A DNA stretch of 64,000 nt, from positions 1 through 64,000 of the forward strand of contig JABXHN010000019.1 in the NCBI GenBank assembly GCA_013373635.1. The letters run 5' to 3'. The notes under the pieces were generated by a model. That model saw only the letters and a list, made by a program, of their open reading frames with translations. It was not told the origin of the DNA and did not search any database. Numbering within the stretch: position 1 is the stretch's first letter; every line of letters begins with the position of its first letter. The position numbers were made by a program, and so were the translations under genes. Shown piece by piece: positions 26,609 to 36,214 of the stretch. This stretch comes from Flavobacteriaceae bacterium (GTDB taxonomy: Bacteria > Bacteroidota > Bacteroidia > Flavobacteriales > Flavobacteriaceae).

Positions 26609-27154
26609 ATGAAAAACATCGCATTTTTAACTAGTCTTATTTCTTTATTCTTTTTAAACTCTTGTGTAAAAACCCTAGAAGCTCCAGAGCAAATCAACGA
26701 AGAAGAATTGATCACCACCTTAGTTGTTTCTCTGGAATCAGCAACGGATCAAGTTGAATTGCGCTATACCGATTTGGACGGCGATGGCCCTAATCAAGGA
26801 GTTTTTCAAGCTCCAAATTTAAAACCCAACACAACTTATAGCGGAAAGCTAGAATTCCTAAACGAAAGTGAATCACCAGCAGAAGACATCACTTTAGAAA
26901 TAGAAGAAGAAGCGAACGATCATCAAGTTTTTTATGTTGTCAATGGTTTGAATGCAACAATTGAACCAATCAATATCGATAAGAATGGTTATTACTTAGG
27001 AACAAGCTTTAGCCTCACCACCCTATCACCATCTGAAGGTCAATTACAATTCATTCTCAGACACTTACCCACAAAACCAAATGATGGCAATCCTGCAACA
27101 GCTGGAGGAGCTACAGACCTATCGGTAATCTTCAATTTAAAAATTACCGAATAA
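26609..27154 (+). CDS. Lipoprotein partner of the TonB receptor
   Basis: MKNIAFLTSLISLFFLNSCVK lipobox; ATG at 26609 immediately follows the receptor stop. Confidence 0.65.
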   Translation: MKNIAFLTSLISLFFLNSCVKTLEAPEQINEEELITTLVVSLESATDQVELRYTDLDGDGPNQGVFQAPNLKPNTTYSGKLEFLNESESPAEDITLEIEEEANDHQVFYVVNGLNATIEPINIDKNGYYLGTSFSLTTLSPSEGQLQFILRHLPTKPNDGNPATAGGATDLSVIFNLKITE

Positions 27155-27264
27155 GAATCCTTAAAATTAAGGCTCTGGATATTTGATATTTACGATTTTT
27201 TTGAGGTTCCATCAATGTTTTTGTTAAAAATTGATGCTTGACTCCTCTAATTATGGGAAAACAC

Positions 27265-27272
27265 TATATTTG
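27265..27272 (+). promoter_or_regulatory. Putative -7 box TATATTTG for the arginine operon
   Basis: Exact TAnnTTTG, 5 nt upstream of the leader ATG; nearest TTG is 27238-27240 with a 24-nt spacer, longer than usual. Confidence 0.5.
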
Positions 27273-27277
27273 TGTCG

Positions 27278-27334
27278 ATGAATAACACAATCGCACATAG
27301 TATACTGCGTTACCCAAGACGCCGCCGCCCGTAA
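27278..27334 (+). promoter_or_regulatory. Candidate arginine-operon leader peptide MNNTIAHSILRYPRRRRP* (18 aa)
   Basis: Read directly: ATG AAT AAC ACA ATC GCA CAT AGT ATA CTG CGT TAC CCA AGA CGC CGC CGC CCG TAA; five Arg codons in seven positions, 90 nt upstream of the first arg-operon gene. Confidence 0.75.
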
Positions 27335-27424
27335 GGGTGCAAAATTATCTATGGAATTAGGTGTGTCCATTTCCTCTCTCAAGAACCTCATCAAAATTTT
27401 ATCAATTTAATACCAGTAACTACA

Positions 27425-28048
27425 ATGAAAATTGTTAGTGCTAACAAATCGCATTTTAAATACGCTCCTATCATTTGTGATACCATAGCTGAATCTGCCA
27501 AAGTCAGAGGTACAGGTATTGCCAAAAGGACTCCTGAGTACATCCAAAAAAAGATGGAAAATCAAAATGCCATCATCGCATTAGATGGTGATCAGTTTGC
27601 AGGATTTTGCTATATAGAGGTCTGGGGACACAATAAGTTTGTCGCTAACTCTGGACTTATTGTCAATCCAGATTACAGAGGTCAAGGATTGGCTAAAAAA
27701 ATTAAAAAAGCTGCCTTTGAACTTTCAAGGAAAAAATTTCCAGAGGCAAAATTGTTTGGGATCACTACAGGCCTTGCGGTAATGAAAATCAATTACGAAT
27801 TAGGATATAAACCCGTTACTTTTTCAGAACTTACGGATGATCCTGATTTTTGGAATGGATGTAAGACCTGTAAGAATTTTGATGTATTAAACAGAACAGA
27901 TCACAAAATGTGTCTGTGTACTGGGATGCTATACGATCCTCAGAAAAAGAAAAGCACTATAGGTAAAATGTTTAACCCAAAGGCTTTTCAGAGATTAAAA
28001 AAAATTAAAGAAAAATTATTTCTAAATAAGAAAAAGAGTAAAAAATGA
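27425..28048 (+). CDS. GNAT family N-acyltransferase (arginine operon)
   Basis: GLIVNPDYRGQGLAKKIKKAAFELSRKKFP acyl-CoA binding motif; followed by argG. Confidence 0.85.
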   Translation: MKIVSANKSHFKYAPIICDTIAESAKVRGTGIAKRTPEYIQKKMENQNAIIALDGDQFAGFCYIEVWGHNKFVANSGLIVNPDYRGQGLAKKIKKAAFELSRKKFPEAKLFGITTGLAVMKINYELGYKPVTFSELTDDPDFWNGCKTCKNFDVLNRTDHKMCLCTGMLYDPQKKKSTIGKMFNPKAFQRLKKIKEKLFLNKKKSKK

Positions 28049-29229
28049 AAAAGTTAGTCATTGCATACAGTGGAGGATTAGATACCTCTTATTGCGCTAA
28101 GAGTTTATCCAATGAAGGTTATGAAGTTCACGCTGTATCGGTTAACACCGGAGGATTTTCCAAAGAAGAAATTGCTGATATTGAGTCAAAGGCTCTTGCC
28201 TTAGGTGCACACAACTATGTATCGATCGATGCGGTTCAAACCTTTTACGACAAGGTTGTCAAATACCTCATCTACGGAAATGTATTAAAGAACAATACCT
28301 ATCCACTTTCTGTAAGTGCGGAACGTATTATTCAAGCCATCGAAATTGCAAATTACGCCAATGAAATTGGAGCGGAATACATCGCTCACGGATCTACTGG
28401 TGCAGGAAATGATCAGGTTCGTTTTGATTTAATTTTTAGCATTATCGCTCCAGAAAAGAAAATCATTACTCCAATTAGAGATAATACACTCACTAGAGAA
28501 CAAGAAATTCAGTACCTCAAAGAAAATGGAATTGACTATCCTTGGGAAAAGGCCAAGTACTCCATCAACAGAGGACTTTGGGGAACATCTGTTGGAGGAG
28601 TGGAGACCTTAACTTCTAAAGATGCGTTGCCAGAGGAGGCTTATCCTTCTCAATTAAGCGAATCAGGTTCAAGAAAAATTAAATTAACCTTTGAAAAAGG
28701 TGAATTAGTGGCTCTCGATGGAAAAAAGGACAGTCCACTCAACAATATTATTGCTCTAGAAGCAATTGCTTCTGCTTATGCCATTGGTAGAGATATTCAC
28801 GTAGGTGATACCATTATTGGGATCAAAGGTAGAGTTGGTTTTGAAGCTGCTGCCGCCCTTGTGATTATCAAAGCACACCACTTATTGGAAAAACACTGTT
28901 TGAGTAAATGGCAACAACATCAAAAAGAAAGTCAAGGAAACTTCTATGGCATGCTCTTACACGAAGGTCAGTATTTAGATCCAGTAATGAGAAATATCGA
29001 AGCCTTCCTCTCTGATACTCAAAAGAATGTGAGTGGAGATGTCTTTGTAAGTCTTCACCCATACCGTTTTTCTTTAGATGGAATCGAATCCAAGCACGAT
29101 TTAATGAGTGCTAAGTTTGGATCCTACGGAGAAGAAAACAAAGCATGGACTGCTGAGGATGCCAAAGGATTTATCAAAATAACAGCGAATGCTGGAAAAA
29201 TATACAAACAAGTCAACGCAGATGATTAA
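28045..29229 (+). CDS. argG: Argininosuccinate synthase
   Basis: KLVIAYSGGLDTSYCAKSL; YIAHGSTGAGNDQVRFD. Confidence 0.97.
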   Translation: MKKLVIAYSGGLDTSYCAKSLSNEGYEVHAVSVNTGGFSKEEIADIESKALALGAHNYVSIDAVQTFYDKVVKYLIYGNVLKNNTYPLSVSAERIIQAIEIANYANEIGAEYIAHGSTGAGNDQVRFDLIFSIIAPEKKIITPIRDNTLTREQEIQYLKENGIDYPWEKAKYSINRGLWGTSVGGVETLTSKDALPEEAYPSQLSESGSRKIKLTFEKGELVALDGKKDSPLNNIIALEAIASAYAIGRDIHVGDTIIGIKGRVGFEAAAALVIIKAHHLLEKHCLSKWQQHQKESQGNFYGMLLHEGQYLDPVMRNIEAFLSDTQKNVSGDVFVSLHPYRFSLDGIESKHDLMSAKFGSYGEENKAWTAEDAKGFIKITANAGKIYKQVNADD

Positions 29230-30196
29230 AGCAGGAATTATAGGAGGATCAGGATATACTGGAGGAGAGCTCATTCGAATTCTAGAACAGCATCCAGCAG
29301 TTGAAATCGATTTTATATACAGCACCACGCGTGCTGGCAAAAAGGTAAGTTCGGCACATCCGGATCTTATCGGAAGAACTGAATATGTTTTTACATCAGA
29401 CGTTAATTTAGAAGTGGATGTCGTATTTCTGTGTCTTGGACATGGTAATTCTCTCAGCTTTTTAAAAGAGAATAACTTTTCTGACAATACCAAAATTATT
29501 GATTTAAGCACCGACTTTAGAGCACAGAAAGACGCTGAATTTTTAGGAAGAACCTTTGTATATGGTCTGCCTGAAAATCACAAAACGGCTATTGAAAATG
29601 CTACCGCCATTGCCAATCCTGGTTGCTTTGCAACAGCACTTCAGCTTTCTTTAGCTCCATTAGCTTCAAAAAAATTGATTACATCAGAAGTTCATATCAA
29701 TGCGACCACTGGAAGTACAGGTGCTGGTGTCAAGCCTTCAGACACCACTCATTTTAGTTGGAGAACAAGCTCAGTTTCTTGGTACAAAGCCTTTAATCAT
29801 CAACACTTAAATGAAGTTGGAGAGCAACTTACAGCCCTAAATGATTCAGCACCAGAATTGTTGTTTATCCCTAATAGAGGAAATTTTACAAGAGGTATTT
29901 TTGCAACGGTTTATACAGAATTTGATGGAAGTTTAGAAGATGCGAAAGAATTGTATTCTAACTACTACAAAAACGCTCCTTTCACACATTTGACAGATGA
30001 ACCCATTCACCTCAAACAAGTGGTGAACACCAATAATTGTCATCTTCATTTGATGAAACACAAAAAGTATTTAATGATTACTGCAGCCATAGATAACCTT
30101 TTAAAAGGAGCATCTGGGCAAGCTGTTCAAAATATGAATCTTATCTTCGGATTAGAAGAAGATATGGGATTACAACTCAAACCAATAGCATTTTAA
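29222..30196 (+). CDS. argC: N-acetyl(or succinyl)-gamma-glutamyl-phosphate reductase
   Basis: MIKAGIIGGSGYTGGELIRIL; NPGCFATALQLSLAPL. ATG 29222 overlaps the argG end by 8 nt. Confidence 0.96.
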   Translation: MIKAGIIGGSGYTGGELIRILEQHPAVEIDFIYSTTRAGKKVSSAHPDLIGRTEYVFTSDVNLEVDVVFLCLGHGNSLSFLKENNFSDNTKIIDLSTDFRAQKDAEFLGRTFVYGLPENHKTAIENATAIANPGCFATALQLSLAPLASKKLITSEVHINATTGSTGAGVKPSDTTHFSWRTSSVSWYKAFNHQHLNEVGEQLTALNDSAPELLFIPNRGNFTRGIFATVYTEFDGSLEDAKELYSNYYKNAPFTHLTDEPIHLKQVVNTNNCHLHLMKHKKYLMITAAIDNLLKGASGQAVQNMNLIFGLEEDMGLQLKPIAF

Positions 30197-30206
30197 TTTA
30201 AGAGCC

Positions 30207-31007
30207 ATGAAAATAGCCATCATCGGAGCAGGAAATTTAGGAAAATCTATCGCCAAAGGAATTTTAAATTCCAATGGAGCAACCCATATGTTTCTCACTA
30301 AGAGAAATACTCGATCTATAAAAGATTATGAGAGTTACGGAAATGTAACTGTGACTTCAGATAACAAAAAGGCAGTTAAAAAATCAGATGTTTTAATTTT
30401 TGCTTTGCAGCCAAGTCAAATGAAAGCTGTGCTTGAGGAGATTAAGAAAGAACTCACCGACAAACACGTGATCATCTCTACTGCTGCAGGACTTGAAATC
30501 GAACAAATCGAACAACTGATCGGTAGTGATAAGTACATTTTAAGAGCCATGCCTAATACAGCAATTTCAGTAGGTGAATCCATGACCTGTATTTGCAGTA
30601 ACAGCAAAGGAGAATCTCGAGTAGAACTCGCTGAGGCCATCTTTAACAGAATGGGATCTTCTATGATTATTTCTGAACACCTAATGCAAGCGGCAACAGT
30701 GATCTGTGCCTCTGGTATTGCCTTTTGGATGCGTCTCATTAGAGCGACGACTCAAGGAGCTGTTCAATTGGGATTTGAAGCTGAAGAAGCTCACGAATTA
30801 GCTGTAAAGACCTGTAGTGGTGCTGCTAAACTCTTAGTAGAATCCAACTCTCATCCTGAAGCTGAAATCGACAAGGTAACCACTCCAAGAGGGTGTACCA
30901 TCGAAGGATTAAACCAAATGGAACACGAAGGATTGAGCTCTGCACTGATCAAAGGATTACAACGTTCTTATGAAAAAATCAACAGTATTAAATCGAACCA
31001 ACTCTAG
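30207..31007 (+). CDS. proC: Pyrroline-5-carboxylate reductase
   Basis: KIAIIGAGNLGKSIAKGIL; RAMPNTAISVGESMT; TTPRGCTIEGLNQME. Confidence 0.94.
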   Translation: MKIAIIGAGNLGKSIAKGILNSNGATHMFLTKRNTRSIKDYESYGNVTVTSDNKKAVKKSDVLIFALQPSQMKAVLEEIKKELTDKHVIISTAAGLEIEQIEQLIGSDKYILRAMPNTAISVGESMTCICSNSKGESRVELAEAIFNRMGSSMIISEHLMQAATVICASGIAFWMRLIRATTQGAVQLGFEAEEAHELAVKTCSGAAKLLVESNSHPEAEIDKVTTPRGCTIEGLNQMEHEGLSSALIKGLQRSYEKINSIKSNQL

Positions 31008-31010
31008 ACT

Positions 31011-32138
31011 ATGAAGCTATTTGATGTATACCCACTCTACGATATTACCCCGGTTTCAGCACATGGAACTACAGTAATCGATAAAGATGGGGCACACTAT
31101 TTAGATCTCTACGGAGGTCATGCGGTGATTTCAATAGGTCATTCACATCCACATTATCTGAAACGACTTAAAGATCAGATCGATCTAATAGGATTTTATT
31201 CCAATGCGATTCAAAACCCGCTTCAAGTTCAACTAGCAGAAAAACTCGGCAAGCTATCCGACTGTGAAGATTACCAATTATTTATGTGTAATTCTGGAGC
31301 TGAAGCAAATGAAAATGCTCTGAAAGTTGCTTCTTTTATCACTGGTAAAAAACGTGTCATTGCATTTAACAATGCCTTTCACGGAAGAACCTCAGCAGCG
31401 GTAATGGCGACTGACAACCCAAAAATACAAGCTCCTATCAATGCTCAACAAGAAGTGAGCTATCTTCCTTTTGAAGATACTGAAGCTTTAGAAACCGAGC
31501 TAGCAAAAGGAGATGTTTGTGCAGTGATCATCGAGTGCATTCAAGGGGTAGGTGGATTAGACATGCCTTCTCATGAATTTACGAATAGTATTGCTCAGCT
31601 ATCAAAGAAATACGGAGCCATGGTTATCGCTGATGAAGTTCAGTCTGGTTATGGTAGATCTGGAAAGTTCTTCGCCTTTCAACACTACGGGTTACAGCCT
31701 GACATCATCACTATTGCTAAAGGAATGGGAAATGGTTTTCCAGTAGCTGGAGTCCTACTCGCTTCACATATTGAACCTTGGATGGGAATGCTTGGAACGA
31801 CCTTTGGTGGAAATCACTTAGCCTGCGCAGCATCACTTGCAGTATTAGAAGTGATCGAGGATGAAAACCTAATTGAAAATGCTGCTAATTTAGAAGATTA
31901 CTTTAGATCAAAGGCAGCAGAACTACCTCAAATCAAAGCCCTCAAAGGTAAAGGACTAATGCTGGGAATGGAATTTGATTTTGAAGTTGCTGCACTTAGA
32001 AAAAAATTAATCCTAGAACACCATATCTTTACAGGAGCAGCTAGCAATAAAAATCTTCTTAGAATACTTCCAGCGCTCAATGTGACCAAACAAGCTATCG
32101 ATCAATTTTTCGATGCCTTAAAAATAGAACTCTCATGA
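31011..32138 (+). CDS. argD: Acetyl/succinylornithine aminotransferase
   Basis: MCNSGAEANENALKVA; VIADEVQSGYGRSGKFFAFQHYGLQPDIITIAKGMGNGFP. Confidence 0.95.
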   Translation: MKLFDVYPLYDITPVSAHGTTVIDKDGAHYLDLYGGHAVISIGHSHPHYLKRLKDQIDLIGFYSNAIQNPLQVQLAEKLGKLSDCEDYQLFMCNSGAEANENALKVASFITGKKRVIAFNNAFHGRTSAAVMATDNPKIQAPINAQQEVSYLPFEDTEALETELAKGDVCAVIIECIQGVGGLDMPSHEFTNSIAQLSKKYGAMVIADEVQSGYGRSGKFFAFQHYGLQPDIITIAKGMGNGFPVAGVLLASHIEPWMGMLGTTFGGNHLACAASLAVLEVIEDENLIENAANLEDYFRSKAAELPQIKALKGKGLMLGMEFDFEVAALRKKLILEHHIFTGAASNKNLLRILPALNVTKQAIDQFFDALKIELS

Positions 32139-33070
32139 AAAAATTTACCAATATTAGCGATCTAAAGGATCTCAACACTGCTGTAGATGAGGCCATCGCT
32201 TTAAAAAAGAATCCCAGAGCTCATGTGACTCTAGGAGAAGGAAAAACAGTAGGACTTCTGTTTTTTAACAAGAGTCTTAGAACGCGTTTGAGTACACAAA
32301 AAGCTGCCAATAATTTAGGAATGCACGTTATGGTGATGAATTTTGGAGATGAAGCGTGGAACCTAGAATACGAAGATGGCACCATAATGGAAACCATTCG
32401 TTCAGAACACGTTAAAGAAGCGGCTAAGGTAATGTCTCAATACTGTGATATCATCTGCATCAGAGCTTTTGCTGGATTAGAAAACAAAGAAGAAGATCAG
32501 GCTGAACCTGTTCTGACGAATTTTATCAAATACGCAACGGTTCCTATTGTCAATTTAGAAAGTGCTACTGGACATCCACTTCAGGCTTTGGCGGACGCCA
32601 TCACTATTAAAGAACAAAATACCAAAAAGAGACCTAAGGTAGTTCTTTCATGGGCTCCACATCCAAAAGCGCTCCCTCATGCAGTTGCCAATTCATTTAT
32701 TGAGATGATGCGCTATCAAGATGCTGATTTCTGTATTACCAATCCAAAGGGATACGATCTAGATCCTGAAATCACCAAAGGAATAGATATCTATCACGAT
32801 CAGGAGGAAGCTCTTAAAGATGCTGACTTCGTCTACGTTAAAAACTGGTGCTCCTTTGAAGATTACGGAAAAGTCAATATTTCCACAAGAGAATGGATGA
32901 TGACCAAAGAGAAGTTAGGAGATGCAAAATTTATGCACTGTCTTCCGATTCGAAGAAATATTGTTGCCGAAGATGCAGTTCTAGACTGTGACCAATCCTT
33001 AGTGATTGAACAGGCTAACAACAGAACCTATTCAGCTCAATACGTATTAAAAACACTGTTGGAAAACTAA
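32135..33070 (+). CDS. N-acetyl/N-succinylornithine carbamoyltransferase
   Basis: FFNKSLRTRLSTQKAANNLGMHV; WAPHPKALPHAVANSF; MHCLPIRRN. Confidence 0.92.
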   Translation: MKKFTNISDLKDLNTAVDEAIALKKNPRAHVTLGEGKTVGLLFFNKSLRTRLSTQKAANNLGMHVMVMNFGDEAWNLEYEDGTIMETIRSEHVKEAAKVMSQYCDIICIRAFAGLENKEEDQAEPVLTNFIKYATVPIVNLESATGHPLQALADAITIKEQNTKKRPKVVLSWAPHPKALPHAVANSFIEMMRYQDADFCITNPKGYDLDPEITKGIDIYHDQEEALKDADFVYVKNWCSFEDYGKVNISTREWMMTKEKLGDAKFMHCLPIRRNIVAEDAVLDCDQSLVIEQANNRTYSAQYVLKTLLEN

Positions 33071-33074
33071 ACCC

Positions 33075-33860
33075 ATGAAACAAAAACCAATACTATCCAT
33101 TGTTAAAATTGGAGGTGCCATTATCGAAGATTCAATTGCACTAAAAACATTTCTCGAAGATTTTAGCGCCATCCAAGGTCCTAAAATTCTAGTTCACGGA
33201 GGAGGTCGAGATGCTTCTAAAATGGAAGAGCGTTTAGGAATTGAAACCCAAATGCATCAGGGAAGAAGAATTACTTCTGCCCAGAGTTTGGAGGTCATTT
33301 CAATGGTTTACGCTGGTAAAACAAATAAAACAATTGTCGCATTACTTCAATCGATGGGTTGCAATGCGATCGGACTTAGTGGAGCAGATGCCAATTGCAT
33401 CAAATCTCACAAGCGAACAGGAACCGAGATCGACTATGGATTTGTAGGTGATATCGATGAGGTAAATACTGATCATATCGCCGCTTTAATCAATCACTTT
33501 TGCCCTGTATTTTGCGCGATTACCCACGATGGAAAAGGACAGTTATTAAATACCAATGCCGATACCATTACCTCTGCGATTGCTACTGCTATGAGCGAAA
33601 CACATCAAGTAAACCTCTATTACTGCTTTGAAAAACAAGGAGTGCTTTTAGATATTGACAATCCAGAGAGTTTAGTAAAGTCCCTAAACAAAAACTATTA
33701 CAAAGAACTATTAGATCAAGGTGTCATTGCGGCAGGAATGGTTCCAAAACTCCAAAACTGTTTTGAAGCCATAGACAAAGGAGTACATCAGGTAGTTATA
33801 GGCCCCAATACCCTCTTTAGAGAAACAAGTACTAATTACACCAAAATTACAGCAGAATAA
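33075..33860 (+). CDS. argB: N-acetyl(succinyl)glutamate kinase
   Basis: VKIGGAIIEDS, LVHGGGRDASKMEERLGIE; AAGMVPKLQNC. Confidence 0.95.
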   Translation: MKQKPILSIVKIGGAIIEDSIALKTFLEDFSAIQGPKILVHGGGRDASKMEERLGIETQMHQGRRITSAQSLEVISMVYAGKTNKTIVALLQSMGCNAIGLSGADANCIKSHKRTGTEIDYGFVGDIDEVNTDHIAALINHFCPVFCAITHDGKGQLLNTNADTITSAIATAMSETHQVNLYYCFEKQGVLLDIDNPESLVKSLNKNYYKELLDQGVIAAGMVPKLQNCFEAIDKGVHQVVIGPNTLFRETSTNYTKITAE

Positions 33861-34924
33861 TGAAGGAGCTTTTAAAACAACAAGCCGTTGAACTGCTCAA
33901 AAATTTGATCAGCACCCAATCTTTTTCATCTGAAGAAGAGGGAACTGCTGCGCTCATTATCGCTTGGTTGGAATCACATCAAATTCCCTACAAGCGTCAA
34001 AAAAATAATATTTACGCATTTAACAAATACTACCAGGAGGGTAAACCATTACTTCTATTAAACTCTCATCACGATACTGTAAAACCAAATACCGCCTACA
34101 CTAGAGACCCTTATAGTCCAGATGTAGAAGGTGATATTTTATACGGATTAGGATCCAATGATGCTGGAGGTTGTTTGGTATCCCTATTGGCGACCTTCGC
34201 CTATTTTTACGACCAGAAAGATCTCAATCACAATATCGTAATTGTAGCCTCAGCAGAAGAAGAGAACTCAGGTCCAAACGGACTCAACTCTATGATGGAA
34301 ACACTTCCCCATATTGATGTAGCTATCGTTGGAGAACCAACCCTAATGGATCTGGCAATTGCTGAAAAAGGATTGGTGGTTTTTGATGCTGAAGTTTCAG
34401 GAACACCTTCTCATGCAGCACATCCAAATAGCAATAACGCTATTTACAATACCATTTCTGTATTGGAATGGTTTAAGAATTACAAATTTGAAAAAGAGTC
34501 AGAGCTGTTAGGACCGGTTAAATTAACGGTGACTCAAATCAATGCAGGACATCAACACAACGTAGTTCCTGCACATGTCAATCTAGTGATTGATGTACGC
34601 GTCAACGATTGTTACACTAATCAGGAAATTGAAAAAATACTAACTCAAAATGCTCCTTGTAAGGTCAAAGCACGATCACTTCGACTCAATTCATCTAGAA
34701 TCGATCCGGATCATCCACTAGTAAAATCTGGAGAAGCTTTAGGAAGAGGAACCTATGGTTCTCCTACCCTTTCTGATCAAGCAGCACTCTACTGTCAATC
34801 GGTTAAATTAGGGCCAGGAGACAGCAGAAGATCACACTCAGCGGATGAATTTATTTACATCTCTGAAATAGAAGAAGGAATCGACATCTATATCGCTCTT
34901 TTAGAGGGCTTTTTATTAAAATAA
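33860..34924 (+). CDS. argE: M20 family acetyl/succinylornithine deacylase
   Basis: LLLNSHHDTVKPN, YGLGSNDAGGCLVSLLA, SAEEENSGPNGL. Confidence 0.9.
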   Translation: MKELLKQQAVELLKNLISTQSFSSEEEGTAALIIAWLESHQIPYKRQKNNIYAFNKYYQEGKPLLLLNSHHDTVKPNTAYTRDPYSPDVEGDILYGLGSNDAGGCLVSLLATFAYFYDQKDLNHNIVIVASAEEENSGPNGLNSMMETLPHIDVAIVGEPTLMDLAIAEKGLVVFDAEVSGTPSHAAHPNSNNAIYNTISVLEWFKNYKFEKESELLGPVKLTVTQINAGHQHNVVPAHVNLVIDVRVNDCYTNQEIEKILTQNAPCKVKARSLRLNSSRIDPDHPLVKSGEALGRGTYGSPTLSDQAALYCQSVKLGPGDSRRSHSADEFIYISEIEEGIDIYIALLEGFLLK

Positions 34925-34930
34925 ACGACT

Positions 34931-36214
34931 ATGAAACTCTGGGATAAAGGACTCGCAACAGATCAAAAAATCGATCAATTTACAGTAGGAAACGACCGTG
35001 AATTAGACATGCAATTAGCAGCATACGATGTGATTGCTTCACGTGCTCATGCACGTATGCTCTCCACTATTGGGCTGATCACTGAAAGCGAATTCGAAGA
35101 ATTGAACGGTGGATTAAACGAAATTGCAAAATCTATTGAAGATGGAAGTTTTACCATTGAAGATGACTTTGAGGATATGCATTCTAAAATAGAATACGTT
35201 CTCACTGAAAAGTTAGGTGATACCGGTAAAAAAATTCATGCAGCTCGTTCTAGAAACGATCAAGTCCTAGTAGCCTCACAACTTTATCTCAAGGCAGAAC
35301 TATCAGCTATTAAAACTGAAATCAAGGAACTATTCGATCTATTGATCCAGCTAGCAGATCAGTTCAAAGAAGATCTCATGCCAGGATATACCCATCTACA
35401 AGTAGCAATGCCTTCCTCTTTTGGACTGTGGTTCTCAGCCTATGGAGAGAGTTTAATCGACGACATTCACTTTGTCAATGCAGCTCTAAAAGTCTGTGAT
35501 CAAAATCCTTTAGGATCTGCAGCTGGTTACGGTTCTTCTTTTCCAATCGACAGAGCGATGACCACAGAGGAATTAGCTTTTGAAACCCTTAAATACAATG
35601 TGGTTGCTGCTCAAATGGGTAGAGGTAAAACGGAGAAATCCACAGCTTTTGCGCTGAGTTCTGTCGCTGGAACCCTTGGAAAAATGGCCATGGATATCTG
35701 TCTGTATATGGGACAAGACTTTAACTTTATATCCTTCCCGGATGAACTTACTACAGGATCTAGTATTATGCCTCATAAAAAGAATCCTGATGTATTTGAA
35801 CTCATTAGAGGAAAGTGCAACAAACTACAAGCCGTCCCAAATCAATTGACGATGATGCTCGTCAATCTTCCATCGGGTTACCACAGAGATTTACAACTCT
35901 TAAAAGAAATCATCGTTCCATCCATTCAGGAACTGCGTTCGTGTATCGAAATGATGCGATTTAGCCTCAAAGACATTCAACCACGTAAAAACATCACTGA
36001 CGATGCTAAATACGACTATATGTTTAGCGTGGACACTTTAAACGAACTCGTAAAGTCTGGAATGCCTTTTAGAGATGCCTATAAGAAAATGGGTATGGAT
36101 ATTGAAAAAGGAAATTACGATCCAAAAAGAGATTTAAATCACACTCATATTGGATCTATAGGACAACTTTGCTTAGAGGAAATCAAAGCAAAAATGGATA
36201 AAGCACTAGTTTAA
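34931..36214 (+). CDS. argH: Argininosuccinate lyase
   Basis: HAARSRNDQV; GSSIMPHKKNPDVFELIR. Confidence 0.97.
   Translation: MKLWDKGLATDQKIDQFTVGNDRELDMQLAAYDVIASRAHARMLSTIGLITESEFEELNGGLNEIAKSIEDGSFTIEDDFEDMHSKIEYVLTEKLGDTGKKIHAARSRNDQVLVASQLYLKAELSAIKTEIKELFDLLIQLADQFKEDLMPGYTHLQVAMPSSFGLWFSAYGESLIDDIHFVNAALKVCDQNPLGSAAGYGSSFPIDRAMTTEELAFETLKYNVVAAQMGRGKTEKSTAFALSSVAGTLGKMAMDICLYMGQDFNFISFPDELTTGSSIMPHKKNPDVFELIRGKCNKLQAVPNQLTMMLVNLPSGYHRDLQLLKEIIVPSIQELRSCIEMMRFSLKDIQPRKNITDDAKYDYMFSVDTLNELVKSGMPFRDAYKKMGMDIEKGNYDPKRDLNHTHIGSIGQLCLEEIKAKMDKALV

Follow-up and report, generated by a model that had tools for sequence, protein, structure and literature searches.

The classical attenuators of the trp, his and leu operons combine a short promoter-adjacent ORF, a run of end-product codons near the end of this ORF, a hairpin over the control codons and the stop codon, and a position before the first biosynthetic gene; all of these are shared by the arginine leader described here. 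The Bacteroid-trp RNA (RF01692), which we take to be of the leader-peptide type, does not concern arginine. It was reported from Bacteroidetes as a conserved structured leader (PMC2864571). The arginine leader matches no Rfam family: with 4227 models, nothing was found at the gathering threshold and the best match at a relaxed threshold (E 5.7) was on the wrong strand. For Flavobacterium psychrophilum, which belongs to the same family as the bacterium studied here, a transcriptome study describes structured leaders and putative leader-peptide attenuation before amino-acid operons (pheA, hisG and others), and the arginine operon is not among the leaders named in its main text (PMC9723704).

In Salmonella, the leader of speF (orf34/SpeFL) senses arginine with consecutive Arg codons, and its output is achieved via Rho and mRNA decay/RNase, with no intrinsic terminator (PMC6386406). 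Consecutive Arg codons in a leader ORF are common to both systems. However, orf34/SpeFL is found in Gammaproteobacteria before speF and serves putrescine synthesis, whereas the Arg run described here is C-terminal, precedes GNAT-argG and serves arginine synthesis; in addition, the peptide lacks the DUF2618 core HIRRTxH (HIRR) of SpeFL and has no sequence likeness to it.

The ArgR repressor has the same purpose, the end-product control of arginine synthesis, and a different mechanism: it fills this role in many other bacteria, while arginine is here probably sensed by the ribosome translating the Arg run. Text searches of the literature for an arginine leader peptide or for ArgR-independent arginine control in Bacteroidetes found nothing (PMC9723704 being covered by its main text). 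An arginine leader before the arg operon of Bacteroidetes is apparently undescribed, a novelty that we state with reserve. Arginine control in Bacteroidota without ArgR also appears undescribed in the literature searched, and a family-wide leader would be an immediate and testable answer.

The leader ORF, its promoter and the arginine operon

The window (i.e. the whole stretch of 64,000 nucleotides that was analysed) carries the following features, all on the forward (+) strand:

27265..27272, +, Bacteroidetes-type -7 promoter box TATATTTG (TAnnTTTG), by direct reading
27278..27334, +, arginine leader peptide ORF MNNTIAHSILRYPRRRRP with its stop codon, by direct reading, with relatives at family and class level
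27317..27328, +, run of four Arg codons, AGA CGC CGC CGC, by direct reading; one more Arg codon, CGT, at 27308-27310
27326..27339, +, hairpin B, CGCCC-GTAA-GGGTG, whose stem includes the last Arg codon and whose tetraloop carries the stop codon
27353..27374, +, hairpin C, GGAATT-A-GG-TGTGT-CC-ATTTCC, with a bulged A between a lower stem of six pairs and an upper one of two, capped by a UGNGU pentaloop
27375..27424, +, A/T-rich, G-poor stretch from hairpin C to the GNAT start (mean of 125 loci: A 0.41, C 0.17, G 0.08, T 0.34)
27425..28048, +, GNAT-family acetyltransferase gene, the first structural gene of the operon
28045..36214, +, argG, argC, proC, argD, carbamoyltransferase, argB, argE-like and argH genes, by NCBIfam matches

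The ORF has 18 codons (ATG at 27278, TAA at 27332-27334) and contains, in order, the Arg codons CGT, AGA, CGC, CGC and CGC. Its stop codon is separated by 90 nt from the ATG of the GNAT gene (27425), which is followed by the eight other genes in the order listed, all nine in one direction. The ORF with its coordinates and Arg codons, the 90-nt gap and the nine-gene arg operon had been put forward in the original prediction and were confirmed by reading the sequence.

NCBIfam matches were obtained for argG (TIGR00032), argC (TIGR01850), proC (TIGR00112), argB (TIGR00761) and argH (TIGR00838); the best NCBIfam match of argD (TIGR00707) was under the cut-off, and the ArgE/DapE family matches of the argE-like gene were below the cut-offs. 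The carbamoyltransferase (32135-33070) is of the acetyl/succinylornithine type: its best model was NF003384 (N-acetylornithine carbamoyltransferase; 280.2 bits for a cut-off of 288), with a score far above those of the ornithine carbamoyltransferase models, so the operon probably encodes the acylated-ornithine route. A GNAT homologue was found in 199 of 301 genomes of the family.

The leader ATG lies 5 nt downstream of the -7 box. In the Flavobacteriaceae loci with an exact -7 box, the gap between box and start codon peaks at 4 nt (10/51) and 7 nt (25/51), and because of this clustering the transcript probably starts at or just before the ORF; the leader ORFs, as read from these spacings, are probably near-leaderless. 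A matching TTG at 27238-27240 is a candidate upstream promoter element, and is uncertain because its 24-nt spacer exceeds the usual length. Among the 207 Arg codons of 17 neighbouring genes in the window, 14 are CGC and 107 are AGA, and the leader has three CGC; this bias was not leaned on, since one of those codons is constrained by hairpin B. Other promoter-adjacent ORFs with an Arg run were searched for in the genome with a loose pattern, which gave 7 matches (the arg leader included) against 10 for the control.

Conservation of the ORF and of its Arg codons

The DNA upstream of the GNAT homologue was taken from 130 evenly spread Flavobacteriaceae genomes, mostly of different genera (family sample), and from 60 loci of the class, mostly of other families (class-wide sample), and was scanned for ORFs of 12-80 codons whose last 10 codons include three or more Arg. 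Such an ORF was present in 129 of the 130 Flavobacteriaceae loci, compared with 19 on the reverse strand and a mean of 7.7 (maximum 11) in dinucleotide shuffles. For the class-wide sample, 35/60 loci were positive (reverse strand: 10; dinucleotide shuffles: 6.2), and the Arg run was missing in the other 25, including three loci of the genus g129 (L155-L157). A second, organism-named collection, partly overlapping the first, gave 78/80 and spans Maribacter, Cellulophaga, Gillisia, Zunongwangia, Salinimicrobium, Sinomicrobium and others. The 97%-identical relative L237 keeps the leader, as MNNTIAHSILRFPRRRRP.

At 126/126 loci, the reading frame with the RRP end stays open over 15 codons or more; the other two frames do so at 50 and 55 loci. 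The Arg codon located two before the terminal Pro was CGT in 78, CGC in 18 and CGA in 1 of 101 loci, and in other families the same Arg run is written with AGG, AGA or CGA, as in the leader ends VRRRRYFFRV (L189), LRRNRFTFRV (L193) and FRRPILPRA (L177, shorter form RRPILPRA), each followed by the stop codon. The free third base and the switch from CGN to AGG/AGA in other families show that arginine decoding at the end of the ORF is under selection. At loci of the Gillisia and Salinimicrobium type, the stop codon is outside the loop of hairpin B and extra Arg codons lie beyond it (RRLVRV-stop, RRTFVRA-stop).

These comparisons show conservation of the ORF and of its Arg codons throughout the family and more loosely across the class, in agreement with the proposal of a short ORF with an Arg run upstream of GNAT-argG. 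The Pro residues flanking the run, which had been proposed to strengthen stalling, are not conserved: the ends include PRRRRP, TPTRRRP and SRRRRP as well as the Pro-less RRT-stop, RRTFVRA-stop and RRLVRV-stop.

The argR gene (PF02863) was not found in the genome studied here (G000, 99.9% complete) or in the other Flavobacteriaceae of the class sample, and PF02863 was present in 11 of 247 class genomes. The argR gene directly adjoins GNAT in all six genomes with clear matches to both, and a seventh genome, G683, has a marginal ArgR match only, away from GNAT. An Arg-rich short ORF was found at none of eight ArgR loci (0/8). On this pattern, the leader and ArgR look like alternatives to each other, in a small sample in which the loss could have other causes.

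Hairpins B and C and the terminator question

In 98 distinct sequences, 94.5% of the cells of hairpin B were paired, with 12 GU to GC changes and 6 CG to AU changes. Hairpin C had 97.3% of cells paired and double-sided changes at all six pairs of the lower stem; the copy in the window has one T-T mismatch in the stem. For the whole structure (B and C), 96.5% of cells were paired and 106 were double-change cells; shuffles gave 24.5 and sliding the pairing gave no more than 33. Because this 98-sequence alignment was made by fitting to the model, it is biased in the model's favour; the unfitted alignment made first (A1) gives the same picture, and hairpin B is also conserved there. The stop codon within the loop of B is TAG instead of TAA in L011 and L020.

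The Flavobacteriaceae RNA model R1 had a sole strong match genome-wide, the leader site (E 7.6e-15; next match: 2.2), and had no match in other-family loci with AGG/AGA/CGA runs, the one exception, L154, being itself a member of the Flavobacteriaceae. The local minimum free energy (MFE) at hairpin B was below that of shuffles and the whole-leader MFE was unexceptional (z -0.8), the signal being local. Within the ORF, 5' of the Arg run, there is also a third hairpin, which is weaker. The spacer between B and C is composed of 54% T, 17% C and 6% G.

A comparable hairpin, CCUACGCGG-like, is found in some other families 25-35 nt past the leader stop, with a strict URNGY loop in 5 of 33 loci against 0.4 by chance. 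Outside the Flavobacteriaceae, hairpins with a CCTRYGYGG-like loop were seen at this distance after an Arg-rich leader in L164, L165, L168, L171, L178, L189 and L193, and the hairpin of these families is possibly a deep homologue of hairpin C.

Other functions of hairpin C were considered and rejected. The loop might be read as a Shine-Dalgarno-like site, AGGUGA-UCC resembling the complement of the 16S 3' end; this was rejected because AGAUG (L092, L096) and UGUGU/UGCGU loops keep the hairpin and lose the complementarity. The C loop was also inspected as one half of a pseudoknot, either with the ACACA/CACAU motif close to the start of the ORF or with the 3' arm of hairpin B, and showed no consistent complementarity to them. 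A role for AUUUCC, the 3' arm of C, in masking the GNAT start (AUGGAAAU) was discarded, as the arms of C vary where the start does not.

No intrinsic terminator was found at positions 27100-28100 of the window, and the family-wide scan found a terminator-like stem of at least 7 bp in just 2 of 130 arg loci; a loose scan was passed by 55/130 loci, nearly all at hairpin B. For an antiterminator competing with B or C, covariation clearly recovered only the B and C pairs, in an alignment that is poor upstream of them. The same genome carries a textbook His leader (L223, contig C34), MKKTHSHHHIVNYFQTR with its stop codon and then the strong terminator GACCCGTTTGAGTAATCAAGCGGGTTTTTT, upstream of hisG (183164-183628, minus strand). 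Amino-acid-sensing leader peptides are thus in use in the lineage, and the hisG element named in the main text of the F. psychrophilum study (PMC9723704) is probably this His leader. A terminator was present in 15/15 hisG loci examined, including that of this genome, and the his-leader terminators of this group have stems of 9-17 bp and a solid T run. Given the lack of terminators at the arg loci compared with 15/15 his loci, the arg leader keeps the sensing half of a classical attenuator and not the terminator. Unlike the classical attenuators, the His leader of the same genome included, it has no intrinsic terminator or antiterminator pairing that could be found, and instead has hairpin C with its conserved loop.

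Proposed mechanism and alternative explanations

From the comparative evidence, we consider it likely that the ORF encodes an arginine-specific leader peptide, i.e. that it mediates ribosome-dependent attenuation by arginine with a non-classical output step. The ORF, the Arg codons, the frame and hairpins B and C are established by comparison, and from them we infer stalling and the direction of the response, as follows: transcription would start beside the ORF, as the promoter spacing indicates, and a ribosome would translate it at once. When charged tRNA-Arg is plentiful, the ribosome would pass over the Arg codons, reach the stop codon and come off, hairpins B and C would fold and operon expression would fall. 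When arginine is short, the ribosome would stall on the Arg codons, hold B open and shield the leader, and the operon would be expressed. The original prediction of leader-peptide attenuation is supported as to the sensing of arginine by the translating ribosome (conserved ORF and Arg codons), and has to be amended as to its output, since an antiterminator/terminator switch of the trp/his type was not found.

For the output step, we favour either termination by Rho, within a leader that is pyrimidine-rich and poor in G, or recognition of hairpin C by a factor, because there is no intrinsic terminator and because the B-C stretch is pyrimidine-rich and the stretch after C is G-poor; this G-poor composition may be no more than what translation start regions normally show in this phylum. 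By analogy with Salmonella speF, an output through Rho or RNase would be plausible (PMC6386406).

Hairpin B could itself act as a weak intrinsic terminator followed by the U-rich spacer, the ribosome stalled on the Arg codons blocking its 5' arm. The last Arg codon does lie within this arm, and the T content of the spacer and the hits of the loose scan at B fit such a terminator. We nevertheless find it rather unlikely, because the stem is typically 5 bp, the T tract is interrupted and B was not called as a terminator in the window, against the long stems and solid T runs of the his terminators; moreover, a ribosome sitting at the stop codon would cover B too, and the strongly conserved hairpin C would be left unexplained. 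TnaC stalls the ribosome with tryptophan and SpeFL does so with ornithine, and a nascent leader peptide with free arginine as ligand might similarly arrest the ribosome where the ORF ends. The C-terminus is indeed the conserved part of the peptide, most Flavobacteriaceae leaders ending Arg-Arg-Pro-stop, which resembles the Pro-stop end of TnaC. Such an arrest is unlikely in our judgement: the last residues before the stop codon are variable (RRP, RRT, RRTFVRA, RRLVRV, PRRTSVRV, RRR, PRA, FRV), as are the N-terminal two thirds, and the Pro and stop codons fall in hairpin B, which explains their conservation at the RNA level.

Two further explanations dispense with arginine sensing by the ORF. 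Selection on the RNA structure alone (B and C), say as the binding site of a protein or ligand with an incidental ORF, would account for the strong covariation of both hairpins and for the overlap of Arg codons with B, but it is very improbable in view of the frame that is open in all 126 loci (50 and 55 for the other frames), the free third base at the Arg codon outside B, the AGG Arg runs where model R1 finds no match and the TAG that replaces TAA within the loop (L011, L020). It is also very improbable that the ORF serves only to help the following gene to be translated (reinitiation) or to shield the 5' end of the mRNA. Leader ORFs that raise downstream translation have been widely proposed, Bacteroidetes included (PMC4833913), but the stop-to-start distance in Bacteroidetes peaks at 11-14 nt (PMC4833913), against 90 nt here, and this reading would account neither for Arg codons at the head of an arginine operon nor for the His leader found in parallel upstream of hisG.

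Ribosome-mediated sensing of arginine, the reading that we prefer, suggests that an arginine pathway, usually repressor-controlled, can be run by codon sensing. With both a terminator-less arg leader and a textbook His attenuator in one genome, the question of what reads hairpin C becomes a pointed one. The Arg run would also lend itself to reporting on tRNA-Arg charging in these bacteria, for which genetic tools are few. Tentatively, and with more doubt than confidence, the model may be extended to much of the class Bacteroidia, as a terminator-free leader-peptide attenuator of arginine synthesis in which the progress of the ribosome would decide the reading of hairpin C by Rho or an RNA-binding factor, with ArgR lineages lacking it and some Flavobacteriaceae having two tandem Arg-sensing ORFs.

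Deviant leaders were seen in the genus g129 (L155, L156, L157), where the promoter-adjacent upstream ORF (MNKxSLHITSLSRTNxPxTSPEVR...) is kept and the Arg run is absent; the signal sensed there may have changed or been lost. In about 45 of 126 loci, the main leader is preceded at a distance of about 140 nt by a second Arg-rich ORF; the automatic criterion counted 48, of which a few are doubtful. This upstream ORF, typically MKNLKNKIRxxxPGLPVRxRRRF-stop, is located beside the promoter, at about -300 to -230 from GNAT (e.g. L100, L110, L133, L149), and no intrinsic terminator was found between the two tandem ORFs. Two Arg sensors in series would be plausible at these loci, where TTG or GTG appears in many cases to be the start codon of the hairpin-proximal ORF.
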